DNA of 64,000 nucleotides from Mycolicibacterium gilvum. Lineage in GTDB: Bacteria > Actinomycetota > Actinomycetes > Mycobacteriales > Mycobacteriaceae. The stretch is taken from NCBI RefSeq assembly GCF_900454025.1, contig NZ_UGQM01000001.1, positions 3,968,001 through 4,032,000 of the forward strand, written 5' to 3'. The notes under the pieces are model-generated. The model was not told where the DNA came from, ran no database searches, and was given only the letters and a program-made list of their open reading frames with translations. Positions 7,653 through 17,394 of this stretch are shown one piece after another. The position numbers and the translations under genes are program-made. Every line of letters starts with the position of its first letter. The stretch's first letter is position 1.

Positions 7653-7757
7653 GTGATCGACGCCCGCACCCTTTCCACCCGCGTTGTGCTGGTGGCTCGG
7701 CGTCACGTCGACTTCAAGCGCGTCTGCACGTGCTGTTGTCCGCTTTGTCGCGTCTGA
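7653..7757 (+). CDS. Polycysteine leader peptide (cysteine-responsive attenuator) of sirA-cysH operon
   Basis: This is a 34-codon frame (GTG start; an in-frame ATG at 7644 also exists) whose last codons encode CTCCCPLCRV before TGA: five cysteines in eight positions (TGC ACG TGC TGT TGT CCG CTT TGT at 7725-7748). Cysteine is rare in high-GC mycobacterial proteins, so the cluster is striking. The frame ends 107 nt before the sulfite reductase start. Leaderless polycysteine short ORFs that tune downstream cysteine-biosynthesis operons are published for M. smegmatis, and this matches that architecture. The expected behaviour is ribosome slowing at Cys codons when cysteine is low, raising expression of sirA. 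The start choice rests on the -10 spacing. Confidence 0.78.
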   Translation: MIDARTLSTRVVLVARRHVDFKRVCTCCCPLCRV

Positions 7758-7864: not shown

Positions 7865-9547
7865 ATGACGACAGCCAAGACACCCCCCGCCAAACCGGCG
7901 AAGCGCCCCCGCGGCGAAGGCCAGTGGGCGCTGGGCTACCGCGAGCCCCTCAATCCGAACGAACAGTCCAAGAAGGACGACAACCCGCTCAACGTGCGGG
8001 AGCGCATCGAGAACATCTACGCCAAGAACGGCTTCGAGAGCATCGACAAGGGCGACCTGCGCGGACGTTTCCGCTGGTGGGGGCTCTACACACAGCGCAA
8101 GCCCGGGTACGACGGCACCTGGACCGGTGACGAGAACACCGACATGCTCGAAGATGAGTACTTCATGCTGCGGGTCCGCAGCGACGGCGGGGCGCTGACC
8201 GCCGCGGCGCTGCGCACCCTGGGCACCATCTCCACCGAGTTCGCCCGGGACACCGCCGACATCTCGGACCGCCAGAACGTCCAGTACCACTGGATCGACG
8301 TCAAGGACATGCCGGAGATCTGGCGCCGGCTCGACGAGGTCGGCCTGCAGACCACCGAGGCGTGCGGCGACTGCCCGCGCGTGGTGCTGGGTTCGCCGCT
8401 GGCCGGTGAGTCGCTCGACGAGGTGATCGACGGCACGCCCGCGGTCAACGAGATCGTCAAGCGCTACATCGGCAAGAAGGAGTACTCCAACCTGCCGCGC
8501 AAGTTCAAGACCGCGATCTCGGGTCTGCAGGACGTCGTGCACGAGGTCAACGACGTCGCGTTCATCGGCGTCAACCATCCCGAGCACGGTCCCGGCTTCG
8601 ACCTGTGGGTCGGCGGCGGCTTGTCGACCAACCCGATGCTGGGTCAGCGTGTCGGCGCCTGGGTGCCGCTCGACGAGGTGCCCGATGTGTGGGAGGGCGT
8701 GGTCAGCGTCTTCCGCGACTACGGCTACCGGCGCCTGCGCGCCAAGGCCCGGCTGAAGTTCCTGATCAAGGACTGGGGCGTGGAGAAATTCAGGCAGGTT
8801 CTCGAAGAGGAATACCTGAAGCGTCCGCTGATCGACGGACCGGCGCCCGATCCGGTGACCCGGCCGATCGACCACGTCGGCGTGCAGAAGCTCAAGAACG
8901 GCCTCAACGCCGTCGGTGTCGCGCCGATCGCGGGCCGGGTGTCGGGCACCATCCTGACCAAGGTGGCCGACCTCGCCGAGGCTGCGGGCAGCGACCGGAT
9001 CAGGTTCACGCCGTACCAGAAGCTGATCGTGCTCGACGTCCCCGACGACAAACTCGACGAGCTGCGCGCCGGCCTGGACGCGCTGGGTCTGCCGTCCACC
9101 CCGTCGCACTGGCGGCGCAACCTGATGGCCTGCACCGGCATCGAGTTCTGCAAGCTGAGCTTCGCCGAGACCCGCAGCCGCTCGCAGGTGCTGGTCCCCG
9201 AGCTGGAGAAGCGCCTGGAGGACATCAACGCCCAGCTCGACGTGCCGGTCACGATCAACATCAACGGCTGCCCGAACTCGTGCGCGCGCATCCAGGTCGC
9301 CGACATCGGCTTCAAGGGCCAGATGGTCGACGATGGCGACGGCCCCGAAGAGGGGTTCCAGGTTCACCTGGGCGGGAGCCTGGGTCTCGACAGCGGTTTC
9401 GGCCGCAAGCTCCGTCAGCACAAGGTGGTCGCCACCGAGCTCGGCGACTACATCGAGCGGGTTGTCCGCAACTTCGTGAAACAACGCGAGCAGGGTGAGC
9501 GTTTCGCTACGTGGGCGTTGCGAGCCGACGACGCGGACTTGAGGTAG
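7865..9547 (+). CDS. sirA: Ferredoxin-dependent assimilatory sulfite reductase
   Basis: This 560-aa siroheme/[4Fe-4S] enzyme reduces sulfite to sulfide with six electrons from ferredoxin. It is closely similar to M. tuberculosis Rv2391 (NirA/SirA). The sequence shows two ferritin-like nitrite/sulfite reductase half-domains, the cluster/siroheme ligands CTGIEFC (CX5C) and CPNSC (CX3C), the basic RRLRAKARLKFLIKDWG segment, and Tyr75 (GLYTQ) plus the Cys in TTEACGDCPR that correspond to the covalent Tyr-Cys pair next to siroheme in the M. tuberculosis enzyme. It is the first gene of a tight operon with cysH (2 nt gap) and a sirohydrochlorin chelatase-like gene that can supply siroheme. The polycysteine leader upstream ties it to cysteine supply. 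Confidence 0.95.
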   Translation: MTTAKTPPAKPAKRPRGEGQWALGYREPLNPNEQSKKDDNPLNVRERIENIYAKNGFESIDKGDLRGRFRWWGLYTQRKPGYDGTWTGDENTDMLEDEYFMLRVRSDGGALTAAALRTLGTISTEFARDTADISDRQNVQYHWIDVKDMPEIWRRLDEVGLQTTEACGDCPRVVLGSPLAGESLDEVIDGTPAVNEIVKRYIGKKEYSNLPRKFKTAISGLQDVVHEVNDVAFIGVNHPEHGPGFDLWVGGGLSTNPMLGQRVGAWVPLDEVPDVWEGVVSVFRDYGYRRLRAKARLKFLIKDWGVEKFRQVLEEEYLKRPLIDGPAPDPVTRPIDHVGVQKLKNGLNAVGVAPIAGRVSGTILTKVADLAEAAGSDRIRFTPYQKLIVLDVPDDKLDELRAGLDALGLPSTPSHWRRNLMACTGIEFCKLSFAETRSRSQVLVPELEKRLEDINAQLDVPVTININGCPNSCARIQVADIGFKGQMVDDGDGPEEGFQVHLGGSLGLDSGFGRKLRQHKVVATELGDYIERVVRNFVKQREQGERFATWALRADDADLR

Positions 9548-13423: not shown

Positions 13424-14458
13424 TCACGGGACGGCGACCGGATCGTCGGTCGGCAGCGAAGGCACCCTCGTCGCGCGCACGTAGACGGTGTCGCCCTCCC
13501 TGAGACCCAGCGCCTCGGCGTCGCCCCGGGTGATCTGCGCGGTGAACGGCGTGTGCGTCGCGGCGTTGAGCAGTTCCACCCGGACCTCGAAACCGAGCAT
13601 CACGATGCGCTCGATGACCGCGCGGGTGACGCCGGTCGACTGGATCGAGTTGTCGGTCGTCGCGATCGCCATATCGGGGTTCCGGCCGACGCGGATGTCG
13701 TGCGGGCGCACCAGAACTCCGTTGAGCGAGGACACCGCGCCGAGGAACGACATCACGAACGCGTTCGCCGGCGCGTCGTACACCTCGCTGGGCGACCCGA
13801 CCTGTTCGATGCGGCCCTTGTTCAGCACGGCGATCCGGTCGGAGATGTCGAGCGCCTCGGACTGGTCGTGGGTGACGAGCACCGTCGTCACGTGCACCTC
13901 TTCGTGCAGACGCCGCAGCCACGCCCGCAGGTCTTCGCGGACCTTCGCGTCGAGGGCGCCGAACGGCTCGTCGAGCAGCAGCACCTCCGGATCGACGGCC
14001 AGCGCGCGCGCCAGCGCCATCCGCTGGCGCTGCCCGCCGGAGAGCTGGTTGGGGTAGCGGCCCTGGAAGCCCGCCAGACCCACGACCTCCAGCAGGTTGT
14101 CGACCTTCTCCTTGATCTCGGCCCTGGGCTTCTTGCGGATCTTGAGGCCGAACGCGACGTTGTCGCGCACCGTCAGGTGCTTGAACGCCGCATAGTGCTG
14201 GAACACGAACCCGATGCCCCGCCGCTGCGGCGGCACGTTCGTCACGTCGCGGCCGTTGATGATCACGGTGCCGGTGTCGGGATCGTCGAGCCCCGCGATC
14301 GCGCGCAGCAGCGTCGACTTCCCCGATCCACTCGGACCGAGCAGCGACGTCAGAGAACCCTTGGGCACCGTGAAGTCGACGTCGTCCAGCGCCGCGAAGT
14401 CGCCGAAACGCTTGTTGGCGCCCTTGACCTCGATGGCCAGTTCGCTCGTGGCAGACAT
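13424..14458 (-). CDS. cysA: Sulfate/thiosulfate ABC transporter ATP-binding protein
   Basis: This 344-aa ATPase energises sulfate uptake. Walker [10 protein letters not shown] at about 41-49, Q-loop FVFQHYAAF, signature LSGGQRQR, Walker B VLLLDEP and H-loop VTHDQ are all present. The C-terminal TOBE-like regulatory region (VRPHDIRVG onward) is typical of CysA. It is last in the subI-cysT-cysW-cysA operon. A strong GGGGAGAG ribosome site lies just before the ATG, 14 nt after cysW. It ends convergently, 18 bp from the CNNM gene. Confidence 0.95.
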
Positions 14459-14472
14459 GGGCTCTCCCCTGC

Positions 14473-15291
14473 TCAATCGTCGGTCCGGGTGCGTGTGCGC
14501 TGGGCGTCGAACACGATCTGGGCGATGAGCACCGTCACCGCCACGGCCATCAGCACGGTCGAGATGGTGTAGGCGCCGTAGTCGTCTCCACGGGTGTAGC
14601 GGTCGTGCACCAGCAGCGTCATGGTCTGGGACTGCCCCGGCAGGTTCGACGACACCACGAGCACGGCGCCGAACTCTCCGAGTGTGCGCGCGACGGTGAG
14701 CACCACACCGTAGGTCAGGCCCCACCGGATCGACGGCAGGGTCACGCGCCAGAACGTCTGCCACGCGTTGGCCCCCAGGGTCGCCGACGCCTCCTCCTGG
14801 TCGGTGCCGATCTCGTGCAGCACCGGTTCGACTTCGCGGATCACGAACGGCAACGTCACGAAGATGCTGGCCAGCACGATGCCCGGGAACCCGAAGATGA
14901 CCGTCACCCCGAAGTCGTTCTGCACGAAGCCGAACAGCCCGGCGGTCCCCCACAGCGCGATCAGCGCCACACCGACCACCACCGGTGACACCGCGAACGG
15001 GAGGTCGATCGCGGCCTGCAGGGCGTTCTTGCCGCGGAACCGCCTGCGCGCCAGCACCAGCGCCGTGGACACACCGAACACCACGTTGAGCGGCACGACG
15101 ATGGCGACGACGAGAAGCGACAACGACAGCGCGGACTGGGCCGCCGGCGTGGTGATGGATGCCCAGAAGGCGCCCAGCCCCGGAGCGAACGTCTGCCACA
15201 GGATCGCGCCCAGAGGGACGATGAGCAGCGCGATCACATAGAAGAGCGCGACGATCCGCAGGATCAGCCGGGTGCGCAGCGACAGGATCAT
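14473..15291 (-). CDS. cysW: Sulfate ABC transporter permease CysW
   Basis: This 272-aa inner-membrane permease shows about six hydrophobic helices (residues 10-33, 60-82, 100-120, 132-150, 190-212, 240-262) and the EAA-loop segment [21 protein letters not shown] that contacts the ATPase, plus the [17 protein letters not shown] motif (read here as [13 protein letters not shown]). It pairs with CysT to form the channel for sulfate or thiosulfate. It starts 10 nt after cysT and precedes cysA. A near-cognate upstream frame gives only a four-codon peptide, so ATG 15291 is used. Confidence 0.93.
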
Positions 15292-15301
15292 TTCGCGCTC
15301 A

Positions 15302-16132
15302 TCACGCTGTCGCCTCCCGCTTGGCCGCCCTGGCCCCGAAGTACCGCAGCACGAACAGCACGGCGAACGAGATCATCAGCAGCACAATCGAAATAGCGGC
15401 CGCACCGGCCGGGTCGTCGTTCTCGATGAGCGTCCTGATCCACTGCGAGGACACCTCGGTCTCCCCCGGGATCGCGCCGCCGATCAACACGATCGATCCG
15501 AATTCGCCGATGGCCCTGGAGAACGCGAGGCCGGCACCCGAGAGCAGTGACGGCGCCAGCGCCGGCAGGATCACCGAGAAGAAGATCGTCGCGTTGTTGG
15601 CGCCGAGCGACGCGGCCGCCTCCTCGACCTCCCTGTCGAGTTCCAGCAGCACCGGCTGCACGGCGCGGACGACGAACGGCAGCGTCACGAACGCCAACGC
15701 GACCCCGACGCCCCACGCGGTGTGCTGGATGTGGATCCCCACCGGGCTGGACGGTCCGTAGAGCGCGAGCAGCACCAAGCTGGCCACGATCGTGGGCAGC
15801 GCGAACGGCAGGTCGATGATCGCGTCGAGGATCCGCTTGCCGGGGAACTCGTCGCGCACCAGCACCCACGCGATCAGCAGGCCGAACACCAGGTTCACCA
15901 GCGTCACGATGATCGAGATCGTCAACGTGACCTTGAAGGACGCGATGGCCGACGGCGAGGTCACCGCCGACACGAACGCGTCCCAGCCGCCTTTGGCGGC
16001 GATCCACACGATCGCCGCCAGCGGCAGCAGCACGATCACCGACAGCCACATCACCGCGACGCCCACCTGCAGCGAGGCGCCACCCGGCCGGCGTGAGAGC
16101 GCCGGATTCGGAGCGGCCACCGGAGAGGTCAT
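15302..16132 (-). CDS. cysT: Sulfate ABC transporter permease CysT
   Basis: The 276-aa permease has six predicted helices (about 28-50, 72-95, 105-130, 140-160, 200-222, 246-268), the EAA loop EEAAASLGANNATIFFSVILP and the IGEFGSIVLIGGAIPG motif of sulfate permeases. ATG 16132 overlaps the subI stop (ATGA), showing translational coupling. A longer upstream reading in the same frame translates the shadow of subI and was rejected. It acts with CysW, CysA and the SubI lipoprotein. Confidence 0.93.
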   Translation of the reverse strand: MTSPVAAPNPALSRRPGGASLQVGVAVMWLSVIVLLPLAAIVWIAAKGGWDAFVSAVTSPSAIASFKVTLTISIIVTLVNLVFGLLIAWVLVRDEFPGKRILDAIIDLPFALPTIVASLVLLALYGPSSPVGIHIQHTAWGVGVALAFVTLPFVVRAVQPVLLELDREVEEAAASLGANNATIFFSVILPALAPSLLSGAGLAFSRAIGEFGSIVLIGGAIPGETEVSSQWIRTLIENDDPAGAAAISIVLLMISFAVLFVLRYFGARAAKREATA

Positions 16133-17166
16133 CCAGTGGCCTGCTTGTAGATCTTGGTGATGGTCCCGTTGTCCTTGTCGAACAGCTGGGTGTCGACGTT
16201 CTTCCAGCCACCCAGGTCGTCGATGGTCCACAACTTCTCGGGCGCCGGGAACTTGTCGGCGAACTCGGCCTGCACGGCCGGGTCCACCGGCCGGAATCCG
16301 GCCTCGGCCCACAGCTTCTGACCTTCCGGGGTGAACTGGAAGTCGACGAAGGCCTGCGCCTTGTCCAGGTGCCGGCTGGTGTTGACCACCGCGGTCGGGT
16401 TCTCGATCTTGAAGGTCTGCGCGGGATTGACGTGCTCGAGGTCGAAGTTCAGCGCCTCGTTCTCGTAGGCGAGCAGCACATCGCCACTGCCCTGCCGGAA
16501 CACGTCGGTGGCCTCACGGCCCGAGCCGGGACGCAGCTTCACGTGCTCGGTGACGAGCTTGTTGACGAACTCGATGCCGGCCTCGGGGTTCTGCCCACCG
16601 TTGCTGGCATAGGCGTACGGCGCCAACAGGTTCCATTTGGCGGCGCCCGAACTCAGCGGGCTCGGCGTGATGACCTCGATGCCGGGCTGCAGCAGATCGT
16701 CCCAGGTGCGGATGTTCTTCGGGTTTCCGGGGCGCACCGCGAACGTGACGATCGAACCGAACGCGATGCCCTTGTTGGGCCCGGCGTTCCAGTTCTCGTC
16801 GACCTTTCCGGCCTTGACCAGGCGGGTGATGTCGGGCTCGACCGAGAAGTTGACGACGTCGGCCGGCTTGCCCGACTCGACGCTGCGCGACTGGTCACCG
16901 GAGGCGCCGTAGGACGCGGTGACCTCCACACCCTCACCCTCCTCCGTGGCCGAGAACGCGGGCGCAGCCTTCGACCAGCCCGGCTCGGGCACCGCGAACG
17001 CGACCAGGGTCAGCGTCGTCTCCGCGCTGCCGCTGCCACCACTGTCACCCGCCACGTCGCTGGCACCGCCACCGCACGCGGCGAGCAGGGTCGTCGTGAC
17101 CGCGAGCGCCGCGGCGGTACGCCGGCGCGGCGGCGATTTCAGGAGGTTTCGCACGGGGTTCAGCAT
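16129..17166 (-). CDS. subI: Sulfate-binding lipoprotein
   Basis: This 345-aa extracytoplasmic solute-binding protein has a basic N-terminus, a hydrophobic core and the lipobox LLAAC with the acylated cysteine near residue 31, so it is a membrane-anchored lipoprotein. The mature part follows the sulfate-binding fold: AFAVPEPGWSKAAPAF, SYGASGDQSRSVESG (sulfate-contact loop), ADVVNFSVEPDI, and WNLLAPYAYAS. It is first in the subI-cysT-cysW-cysA operon and corresponds to Rv2400c. A polycysteine leader frame lies 122 nt upstream on the same strand, so expression probably responds to cysteine supply. Confidence 0.94.
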   Translation of the reverse strand: MLNPVRNLLKSPPRRRTAAALAVTTTLLAACGGGASDVAGDSGGSGSAETTLTLVAFAVPEPGWSKAAPAFSATEEGEGVEVTASYGASGDQSRSVESGKPADVVNFSVEPDITRLVKAGKVDENWNAGPNKGIAFGSIVTFAVRPGNPKNIRTWDDLLQPGIEVITPSPLSSGAAKWNLLAPYAYASNGGQNPEAGIEFVNKLVTEHVKLRPGSGREATDVFRQGSGDVLLAYENEALNFDLEHVNPAQTFKIENPTAVVNTSRHLDKAQAFVDFQFTPEGQKLWAEAGFRPVDPAVQAEFADKFPAPEKLWTIDDLGGWKNVDTQLFDKDNGTITKIYKQATG

Positions 17167-17288
17167 CGGGGGCCTCTCGACAGGGGTGACGGATTCTTGC
17201 GGGGTGACCCGGTCGCAGAAAGGCAGGTGGAGTCCTGAGGCGGAGCGCCCCAGGCGTCACCGACGCCGAGCCACGAGCGGGCAGGGTG

Positions 17289-17381
17289 TCAGCGACAACA
17301 ACAGACATCAGCAACGGCAGCAAAACCCACGGCAATGAGGGCCACGATGTGACCACCCTTGTTGCCGGACGCCGGATGCAT
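17289..17381 (-). CDS. Polycysteine leader peptide (cysteine-responsive attenuator) of subI-cysTWA operon
   Basis: This is a 30-residue frame from ATG 17381 that ends ADVCCCR followed by TGA: three consecutive TGT codons directly before the last codon. A -10 box TATTCT lies exactly 7 nt before the ATG, so the message is predicted to start at the A of ATG (leaderless). The stop is 122 nt before the subI start. The design matches the leader before sirA in this window and the published leaderless polycysteine attenuators of mycobacteria, but the two peptides share no obvious sequence apart from the terminal cysteines. No protein role is expected beyond sensing charged Cys-tRNA through translation. 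Confidence 0.75.
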   Translation of the reverse strand: MHPASGNKGGHIVALIAVGFAAVADVCCCR

Positions 17382-17388
17382 GGCGCGA

Positions 17389-17394
17389 AGAATA
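17389..17394 (-). promoter_or_regulatory. -10 box of subI operon leader
   Basis: TATTCT on the minus strand (17394 to 17389) fits the TANNNT mycobacterial consensus and is followed by a 7-nt gap to ATG 17381, the leaderless geometry. A -35 element is not evident. Confidence 0.6.

Follow-up and report, generated by a model that had tools for sequence, protein, structure and literature searches.

The sulfate-uptake genes subI-cysTWA of Mycolicibacterium gilvum lie directly 3' of a short frame that ends in a run of cysteine codons, as would be expected of a polycysteine leaderless attenuator. This raises the question of whether the frame is a cysteine-responsive leader, how it would act on subI, and whether its cysteine codons are all that matters. 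Here we argue that it is probably an Ms4533A-type cysteine-responsive leader of the sulfate-uptake operon, acting by translational attenuation. The window referred to below is the whole 64-kb stretch of DNA that was analysed.

A cysteine-ending leader upstream of subI

The leader frame is found on the minus strand, where it runs from an ATG (17381-17379) to a TGA (17291-17289), has Cys-Cys-Cys-Arg-stop as its C-terminus and is separated by 122 nt from the subI ATG at 17166 (Table 1). The first-pass annotation of this DNA had described a TATTCT box followed by 7 nt and an ATG, a 30-residue frame with three TGT codons and one arginine codon before the stop, and a distance of 122 nt to subI, and direct reading agrees with that description throughout. 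The same annotation spoke of a textbook leaderless promoter. This goes too far: the -10 box is conserved, but a sigma-70 scan at the subI leader did not find a -35/-10 pair. The start site is presumed to lie at 17381.

Table 1. Position of the leader, its parts and the neighbouring sulfur genes in the window
Feature	Position	Strand	Basis
-10 box TATTCT (TANNNT)	17389..17394	-	direct reading; 7 nt 5' of start codon
Leader frame MHPASGNKGGHIVALIAVGFAAVADVCCCR (then stop), 30 codons, Ms4533A family, presumed leaderless	17289..17381	-	direct reading; NF042937 match
Conserved body ALIAVGxxAVADV, codons 14-26, 1 to 13 residues before first Cys codon	17304..17342	-	codon comparison, 36 leaders
Three TGT cysteine codons (codons 27-29)	17295..17303	-	direct reading
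RNA segment 1: Cys codons, Arg, stop, next bases	17284..17303	-	inferred from pairing with segment 2
RNA segment 2 CCCGCTCGTGGCTCGGCGTCGGTGACGCC: first part potentially pairs with segment 3, second with segment 1	17253..17281	-	duplex/alignment analysis
RNA segment 3 GCCTTTCTGCGACCGGGTC: potential partner of segment 2 or of the Shine-Dalgarno	17206..17224	-	duplex/alignment analysis
RNA segment 4, including subI Shine-Dalgarno GAGAGG (17178-17173)	17172..17184	-	duplex analysis; minimum-energy fold
subI, sulfate-binding protein	16129..17166	-	TIGR00971, 161.1 bits (cut-off 155.5)
cysT, sulfate permease	15302..16132	-	TIGR02139, 277.8 bits (cut-off 246.1)
cysW, sulfate permease	14473..15291	-	TIGR02140, 345.7 bits (cut-off 329.1)
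cysA, sulfate transport ATPase	13424..14500	-	TIGR00968, 417.3 bits (cut-off 342.75)
Second leader, 34 codons, GTG start, ...CTCCCPLCRV (then stop), before nirA-type reductase at 7865	7653..7757	+	NF042936

The frame matches the NCBIfam model NF042937, "Ms4533A family Cys-rich leader peptide", with 41.7 bits (cut-off 31). The leader is already known as a kind, being an ordinary member of a published and catalogued regulatory type. The models with neighbouring numbers, NF042935 and NF042938, were considered as related leader families and set aside, both being unrelated families, and no Rfam family reaches its gathering threshold within the window.

A second leader sharing the cysteine-codon design, noted before as lying ahead of a nirA-type reductase gene, is indeed present on the plus strand, from GTG 7653 to the TGA that ends at 7757. 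It carries CACAAT 7 nt upstream of the GTG and reads ...RRHVDFKRVCTCCCPLCRV before its stop; it scores 43.4 bits against NF042936 (leader_Ms4527A), slightly below the cut-off of 45, and 17.8 bits, a weak match, against the general NCBIfam model cis_reg_atten (cut-off 27). Elsewhere in the same genome, at C1:5080798, there is an Ms5788A-type leader (54.0 bits, cut-off 45). Upstream of two cysK-like genes (L217 and L218, both below the cysK cut-off) no leader with a cysteine run was found by our rule.

Conservation within the genus

Each of the 60 genomes of the genus that were searched, that of the window among them, has SubI, and the region upstream of subI was read in 59 of them, G008 being left out. 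A frame behind a TANNNT box, with adjacent cysteine codons near its end, lies upstream of a subI copy in 58 of these 59 genomes (own genome included). The sole exception, G044 (locus L022), has lost the whole leader interval and has about 50 nt of intergenic DNA between the upstream gene and subI. The first-pass annotation had proposed to compare this same interval in other genomes of the genus, and had named a lack of conservation of the cysteine codons in relatives as the outcome that would speak against a leader; in mycobacteria, the leader and its adjacent cysteine codons turn out to be kept. A second subI copy in G031 (L080) retains the leader cysteine codons and the RNA blocks described below without a TANNNT box, and a distant subI-like paralog (L081, 43% identity) has no cysteine leader.

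The features of the leader were collected from 71 non-duplicate leaders, 69 of them mycobacterial and two of Rhodococcus type (L044 and L045), all chosen by the TANNNT/adjacent-cysteine rule. The spacing between box and start codon in these leaders, which were preselected for the box, is 7 nt in 66, 6 nt in four and 8 nt in one. The start codon is ATG in 65 and GTG in six, and the last codon and stop read NGC TGA in 66 of the 71.

Conservation of the peptide body

As judged by codon comparison, the body ALIAVGxxAVADV is held by amino-acid selection while most of its codons drift. The comparison used all 36 leaders of exactly 30 amino acids, a set that was not chosen by motif and is unbiased in this respect. 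In these leaders ALIAVG and AVADV are nearly invariant, with 0 to 0.03 nonsynonymous differences per site (pN), and pS in the body is 0.4-1.2 except at codons 15 and 17. For the two residues between the motifs pN is 0.58, and it lies between 0.2 and 0.6 over most of the N-terminal part; A4, G6 and H11 are also conserved.

These data bear directly on the view that the leader is a pure codon counter, in which only the cysteine codons and the RNA pairing would count, and conservation of the body would reflect RNA constraints or common descent. This view is opposed by the variation of synonymous sites over most of the body, whose residues stay constant, and the two Rhodococcus-type leaders, L044 and L045, point in the same direction: compared with the window's leader they have changed 10 and 9 of 11 body codons, respectively, and have kept 10 of the 11 residues. 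Moreover, the ratio is reversed, at about 2.3, when the same bases are read out of frame in a set of 39 selected by motif. On the other hand, 30 of the 69 mycobacterial leaders do without all or part of the body motif, 26 lacking both motifs as written and four more the first, and yet keep their cysteine codons, which shows the body to be dispensable in those 26 leaders. The RNA blocks are visible in the aligned leaders that lack all or part of the motif, and in mycobacteria there is hardly any variation at two codons of the body, CTC (15) and GCC (17), as codon counting would have it. Taken together, we consider pure codon counting possible, if somewhat doubtful.

The leader family outside the genus

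A search of 298 genomes of the order gave 31 matches with E <= 3e-6, each of which has subI just downstream. Within the family, 165 of 301 genomes match the family model (151 above cut-off; 20 of 31 genera); within the class, 40 of 394 do (36 above cut-off; 5 of 137 genera), and 17 of these 40 belong to a single genus of another order. The leader of that genus, approximately MS...IELALIGVxxxxVADIxCR followed by the stop, lies upstream of a binding protein with a lipobox, whose frame was read directly in 16 of the 17 loci; the one locus that was scanned gave SBP_bac_5. The last codon and stop read NGC TGA in 17 of 17 leaders of this other order, and do not in several other genera.

The number of cysteines at the end of the leader differs between these groups. 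Of the 38 distinct rows that come from other genera of the order, 11 end in a single cysteine; of the 15 distinct rows from the other order 13 do so (seven of the 13 having an earlier cysteine in the matched stretch), and of the 51 mycobacterial leaders that have the body none does. The cysteine codon three positions after the conserved aspartate is TGT in all 105 rows (one row counted twice) of a codon table that was gathered with a motif fixing several residues, which makes the low pN of that table partly built in. Among its 39 "other" rows, L148 is the window's own leader, missorted, and L115 comes from another family of the order; the leader of G758, a class-level match (29.9 bits, below cut-off; locus L211), was not found by the motif and was left out. 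On these alignments, the depth of conservation is greater for the body and one UGU codon than for the cysteine run or the downstream gene.

The first-pass annotation had inferred, from the two leaders in the window, a regulon built by translation of cysteine codons. The shared design and the published type support that part of its view. However, the cysteine codons alone leave the conservation unexplained, because the body is under amino-acid selection and the leaders of other genera often end in a single cysteine.

Two loci deserve mention in their own right. L210 (G498:C1:2911000-2918500), from another genus, contains two tandem subI genes, each with its own family leader, one ending in CCR and the other in a single cysteine; several genomes of the genus of G498 have two family matches. 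L115 (G099:C22) has the same body upstream of subI, and an upstream ATG behind the Shine-Dalgarno-like GGAGAGG suggests that its frame is perhaps not leaderless.

Preference for TGT codons

The terminal cysteine runs of the 71 leaders contain 161 TGT and 13 TGC codons, compared with 7 TGT and 42 TGC among the cysteine codons of 15 window genes. At the same loci, the lipoprotein cysteine of subI, used as a control, is encoded by TGC in 42 and by TGT in 12 of the 54 cases found among the 71, and the lipobox cysteine of the binding protein in the other order is TGC in all 13 cases found among the 17 loci. Pairing between segments 1 and 2 (Table 1) was considered as the cause of the preference and rejected: in the other order (17 loci), duplex energies fall above and below those of shuffles without a consistent gain, and thus the pairing does not explain TGT. 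Nor is the preference general among such leaders, since the run that ends the third leader of this genome, of Ms5788A type (L134 1495-1584; G000:C1:5080798), mixes TGC and TGT. The exact 12-base pattern TGTTGTYGYTGA occurs at 12 genomic places, as against 2 for the reversed control, and was discarded as a regulon marker: by our own rule, the subI leader is the only one of the 12 places that starts behind a -10 box.

RNA segments between the leader and subI

The stretch from the leader stop to subI contains recurring blocks, namely CCCGTNCGCGGT, GGTGTCGGTGACGG, CCTTTCCGNNNNNACGGG and a Shine-Dalgarno, GGAAAGG. The possible pairings are 1:2 (the cysteine codons with GTCGGTGACGGC), 2:3, and 3:4 (CCTTTCCG with the Shine-Dalgarno). 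They were analysed in 60 of 74 leaders, after setting aside nine loci without a subI start by our rule, the duplicates L032, L036 and L040, and L044 and L045. Duplex energies favour same-species over cross-species partners for all three pairings, permutations as good being obtained in 0 of 5000 cases for 2:3, 26 of 5000 for 3:4 and 143 of 5000 for 1:2; the control pairings 1:4, 2a:4 and R2:4, with 1654, 3965 and 3222 of 5000, show no such advantage. The permutations ignore phylogeny.

The cost of opening the Shine-Dalgarno in these 60 leaders averages 6.64 kcal/mol when a ribosome stands upstream, 5.16 when it is on the cysteine codons, 6.26 when it is two codons past the stop and 6.55 without a ribosome. 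With the ribosome at the stop codon it is 5.13, as low as on the cysteine codons, and therefore equilibrium folding does not distinguish stalled from terminating ribosomes. The control with shuffled intergenic sequence is flat (5.43 upstream, 5.36 on the cysteine codons, 5.38 at the stop, 5.50 two codons past it). Counted per leader, the cost on the cysteine codons is more than 0.5 lower than upstream in 38 of 60 and higher in four, whereas shuffling of the intergenic part gives 21 and 18 of 60. The cost in the window's own genome (L001) is nearly flat: it is 7.7 upstream and stays at 6.7-7.0 for all later positions, those past the stop included. The minimum-energy fold of this RNA has the Shine-Dalgarno pairing with segment 3. 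The whole leader RNA is no more stable than its shuffles (z -0.92; 34 of 200 as stable).

Covariation was assessed in an alignment (A2) of 45 of the 60 leaders, the omission of 15 poorly aligning ones favouring structures. The 2:3 columns have 92.3% of their cells paired (best slid version 60.6%), with only four doubly changed cells; the 3:4 columns 68.9% (65.5%), with double changes not above shuffles; and the 1:2 columns 83.6% (70.1%), with zero double changes. Column-wise covariation in these 45 leaders is too weak to serve as proof of an RNA switch, and we discarded it as such. We regard the pairings of the segments as partly supported. An RNA switch at the subI leader is likely on these energy calculations, and we have moderate confidence that the modelled four-segment arrangement fits translational attenuation via the subI Shine-Dalgarno.

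A stalled or missing ribosome could instead decide whether RNA polymerase terminates before subI, either through Rho or at an intrinsic terminator. Rho was proposed for the mycobacterial cys leaders in the available part of Seliverstov 2005 (PMC1262725), which saw no conserved hairpins capable of termination, and the accessible text of PMC13236596 reports transcription attenuation for ilvB1 in M. tuberculosis. At the present locus, however, a consensus scan from 17288 to 17167 gave no intrinsic terminator between the leader and subI; the sole terminator-like site lies inside the leader frame (17347-17327), one site where 0.3 are expected. Segments complementary to the Shine-Dalgarno region, moreover, recur across species, and we consider transcription attenuation unlikely.

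Still less likely, in our opinion, is that the released peptide is a functional micropeptide, acting for instance on the transporter, with the leader doubling as its gene. Its hydrophobic stretch and strong residue conservation would suit such a role, but the stretch is short for a membrane helix and contains an invariant aspartate, the body is absent in a large part of the genus, and the downstream gene is a different one in another order. That the leader is a chance frame without function has nothing found in its favour and a negligible probability, being refuted by the conservation in 58 of 59 genomes and by the fact that none of 20000 dinucleotide-preserving shuffles of the 262-nt region gave a comparable frame (TANNNT, 6-8 nt, RTG, 8-60 codons, at least two adjacent cysteines in the last eight residues).

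A possible mechanism

For translational attenuation we propose the following scheme, in which the start site, the pausing, the cysteine response and the role of the peptide are inferred. The transcript would start at or next to the leader AUG, allowing direct loading of ribosomes. With ample Cys-tRNA the leader would be read fast, segment 1 would pair with segment 2, and segment 3 would pair with the subI Shine-Dalgarno in segment 4, keeping translation of subI low. When Cys-tRNA is scarce, the ribosome would pause on the TGT codons and cover segment 1; segment 2 would then take segment 3, the Shine-Dalgarno would be freed, and the operon would be made. The nascent ALIAVGxxAVADV in the exit tunnel may strengthen the pause or make it more dependent on cysteine.

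Such a nascent-peptide role for the leader body is plausible on the pattern of conservation, and assistance of the pause by the nascent peptide would be the simplest account of the deep conservation of the body and the UGU codon. The strongest counterpoint, which weakens this idea, is provided by the 26 of 69 mycobacterial leaders without both body motifs and the four more without the first; the body may be replaceable by extra cysteine codons or by changes in the RNA. We put forward, as a serious but tentative possibility, that the Ms4533A leader is a cysteine-responsive arrest peptide and not a mere codon counter, that a tunnel sequence of about ELALIxVxxxxVADIxC primes the pause at one UGU, and that this device is of sufficient age to be found ahead of a sulfate-binding protein in Mycobacteriaceae and, in another order, ahead of a binding protein of peptide type. 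The polycysteine run would then have arisen as an elaboration in mycobacteria, one that later allowed part of the genus to lose the body. If the body matters, a textbook-looking codon-counting attenuator would turn out to combine the effects of codon supply and nascent peptide. Natural variants exist with a single cysteine and the body, with several cysteines and the body, and with several cysteines and no body.

Comparison with known systems

Leaders of this kind have been described before. The available part of Seliverstov 2005 (PMC1262725) describes leaders with cysteine runs, without conserved hairpins, upstream of mycobacterial cys operons; those operons may exclude subI, and the four-segment switch proposed here is for a leader type that the accessible text presents without other attenuator elements. 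As far as their available text goes, Shell 2015 (PMC4633059) reports conserved cysteine-rich small frames upstream of cysA2, Rv0485 and nirA, Smith 2022 (PMC9094748) six predicted cysteine-responsive frames in M. tuberculosis, and both PMC13236596 and PMC9031893 cite Canestrari 2020 for cysteine-responsive attenuation. In the part available of the Streptomyces lividans reannotation (PMC8079986), a table lists eight leader peptides, none of them carrying a body of the ALIAVGxxAVADV type. A conserved body or nascent-peptide role of this leader was not found described in our literature search, which did not extend to Canestrari 2020, and we claim no priority.

The present leader belongs to the same peptide family as the members of NF042937, with subI following it here; nothing was found that distinguishes this copy, which looks like an ortholog. 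The model also covers leaders with a single terminal cysteine, and "Cys-rich" fits only part of the family. Trp-type leader attenuation likewise uses amino-acid codons as the sensor and competing 1:2, 2:3 and 3:4 pairings. The sensor codons and competing pairings are thus alike, but the output here would be the Shine-Dalgarno and not a terminator, a terminator-like site being absent between leader and gene. TnaC and the Erm leaders are reportedly regulators of the arrest-peptide type. As in these, residues within about 14 positions of the pause site are conserved while their codons vary; unlike in these, the body is absent in part of the genus, and arrest is hypothetical here.

The closest relatives are the polycysteine leaderless attenuators. 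Canestrari 2020 is said to have found that stalling of ribosomes in the polycysteine tract blocks structures in which the downstream ribosome-binding site is hidden, and reportedly coined the term "ribulon". We take these attenuators (those of Canestrari 2020; Ms5788A, Ms4527A and others) to share with the present leader cysteine codons before the stop and a sulfur gene downstream and, as presumed for the present leader, a leaderless start and sequestration of the Shine-Dalgarno. Adjacent cysteine codons near the end of the subI leader are kept in 58 of 59 genomes. To this design, the present analysis adds, for the subI leader, a conserved peptide body and the proposed four-segment pairing scheme.
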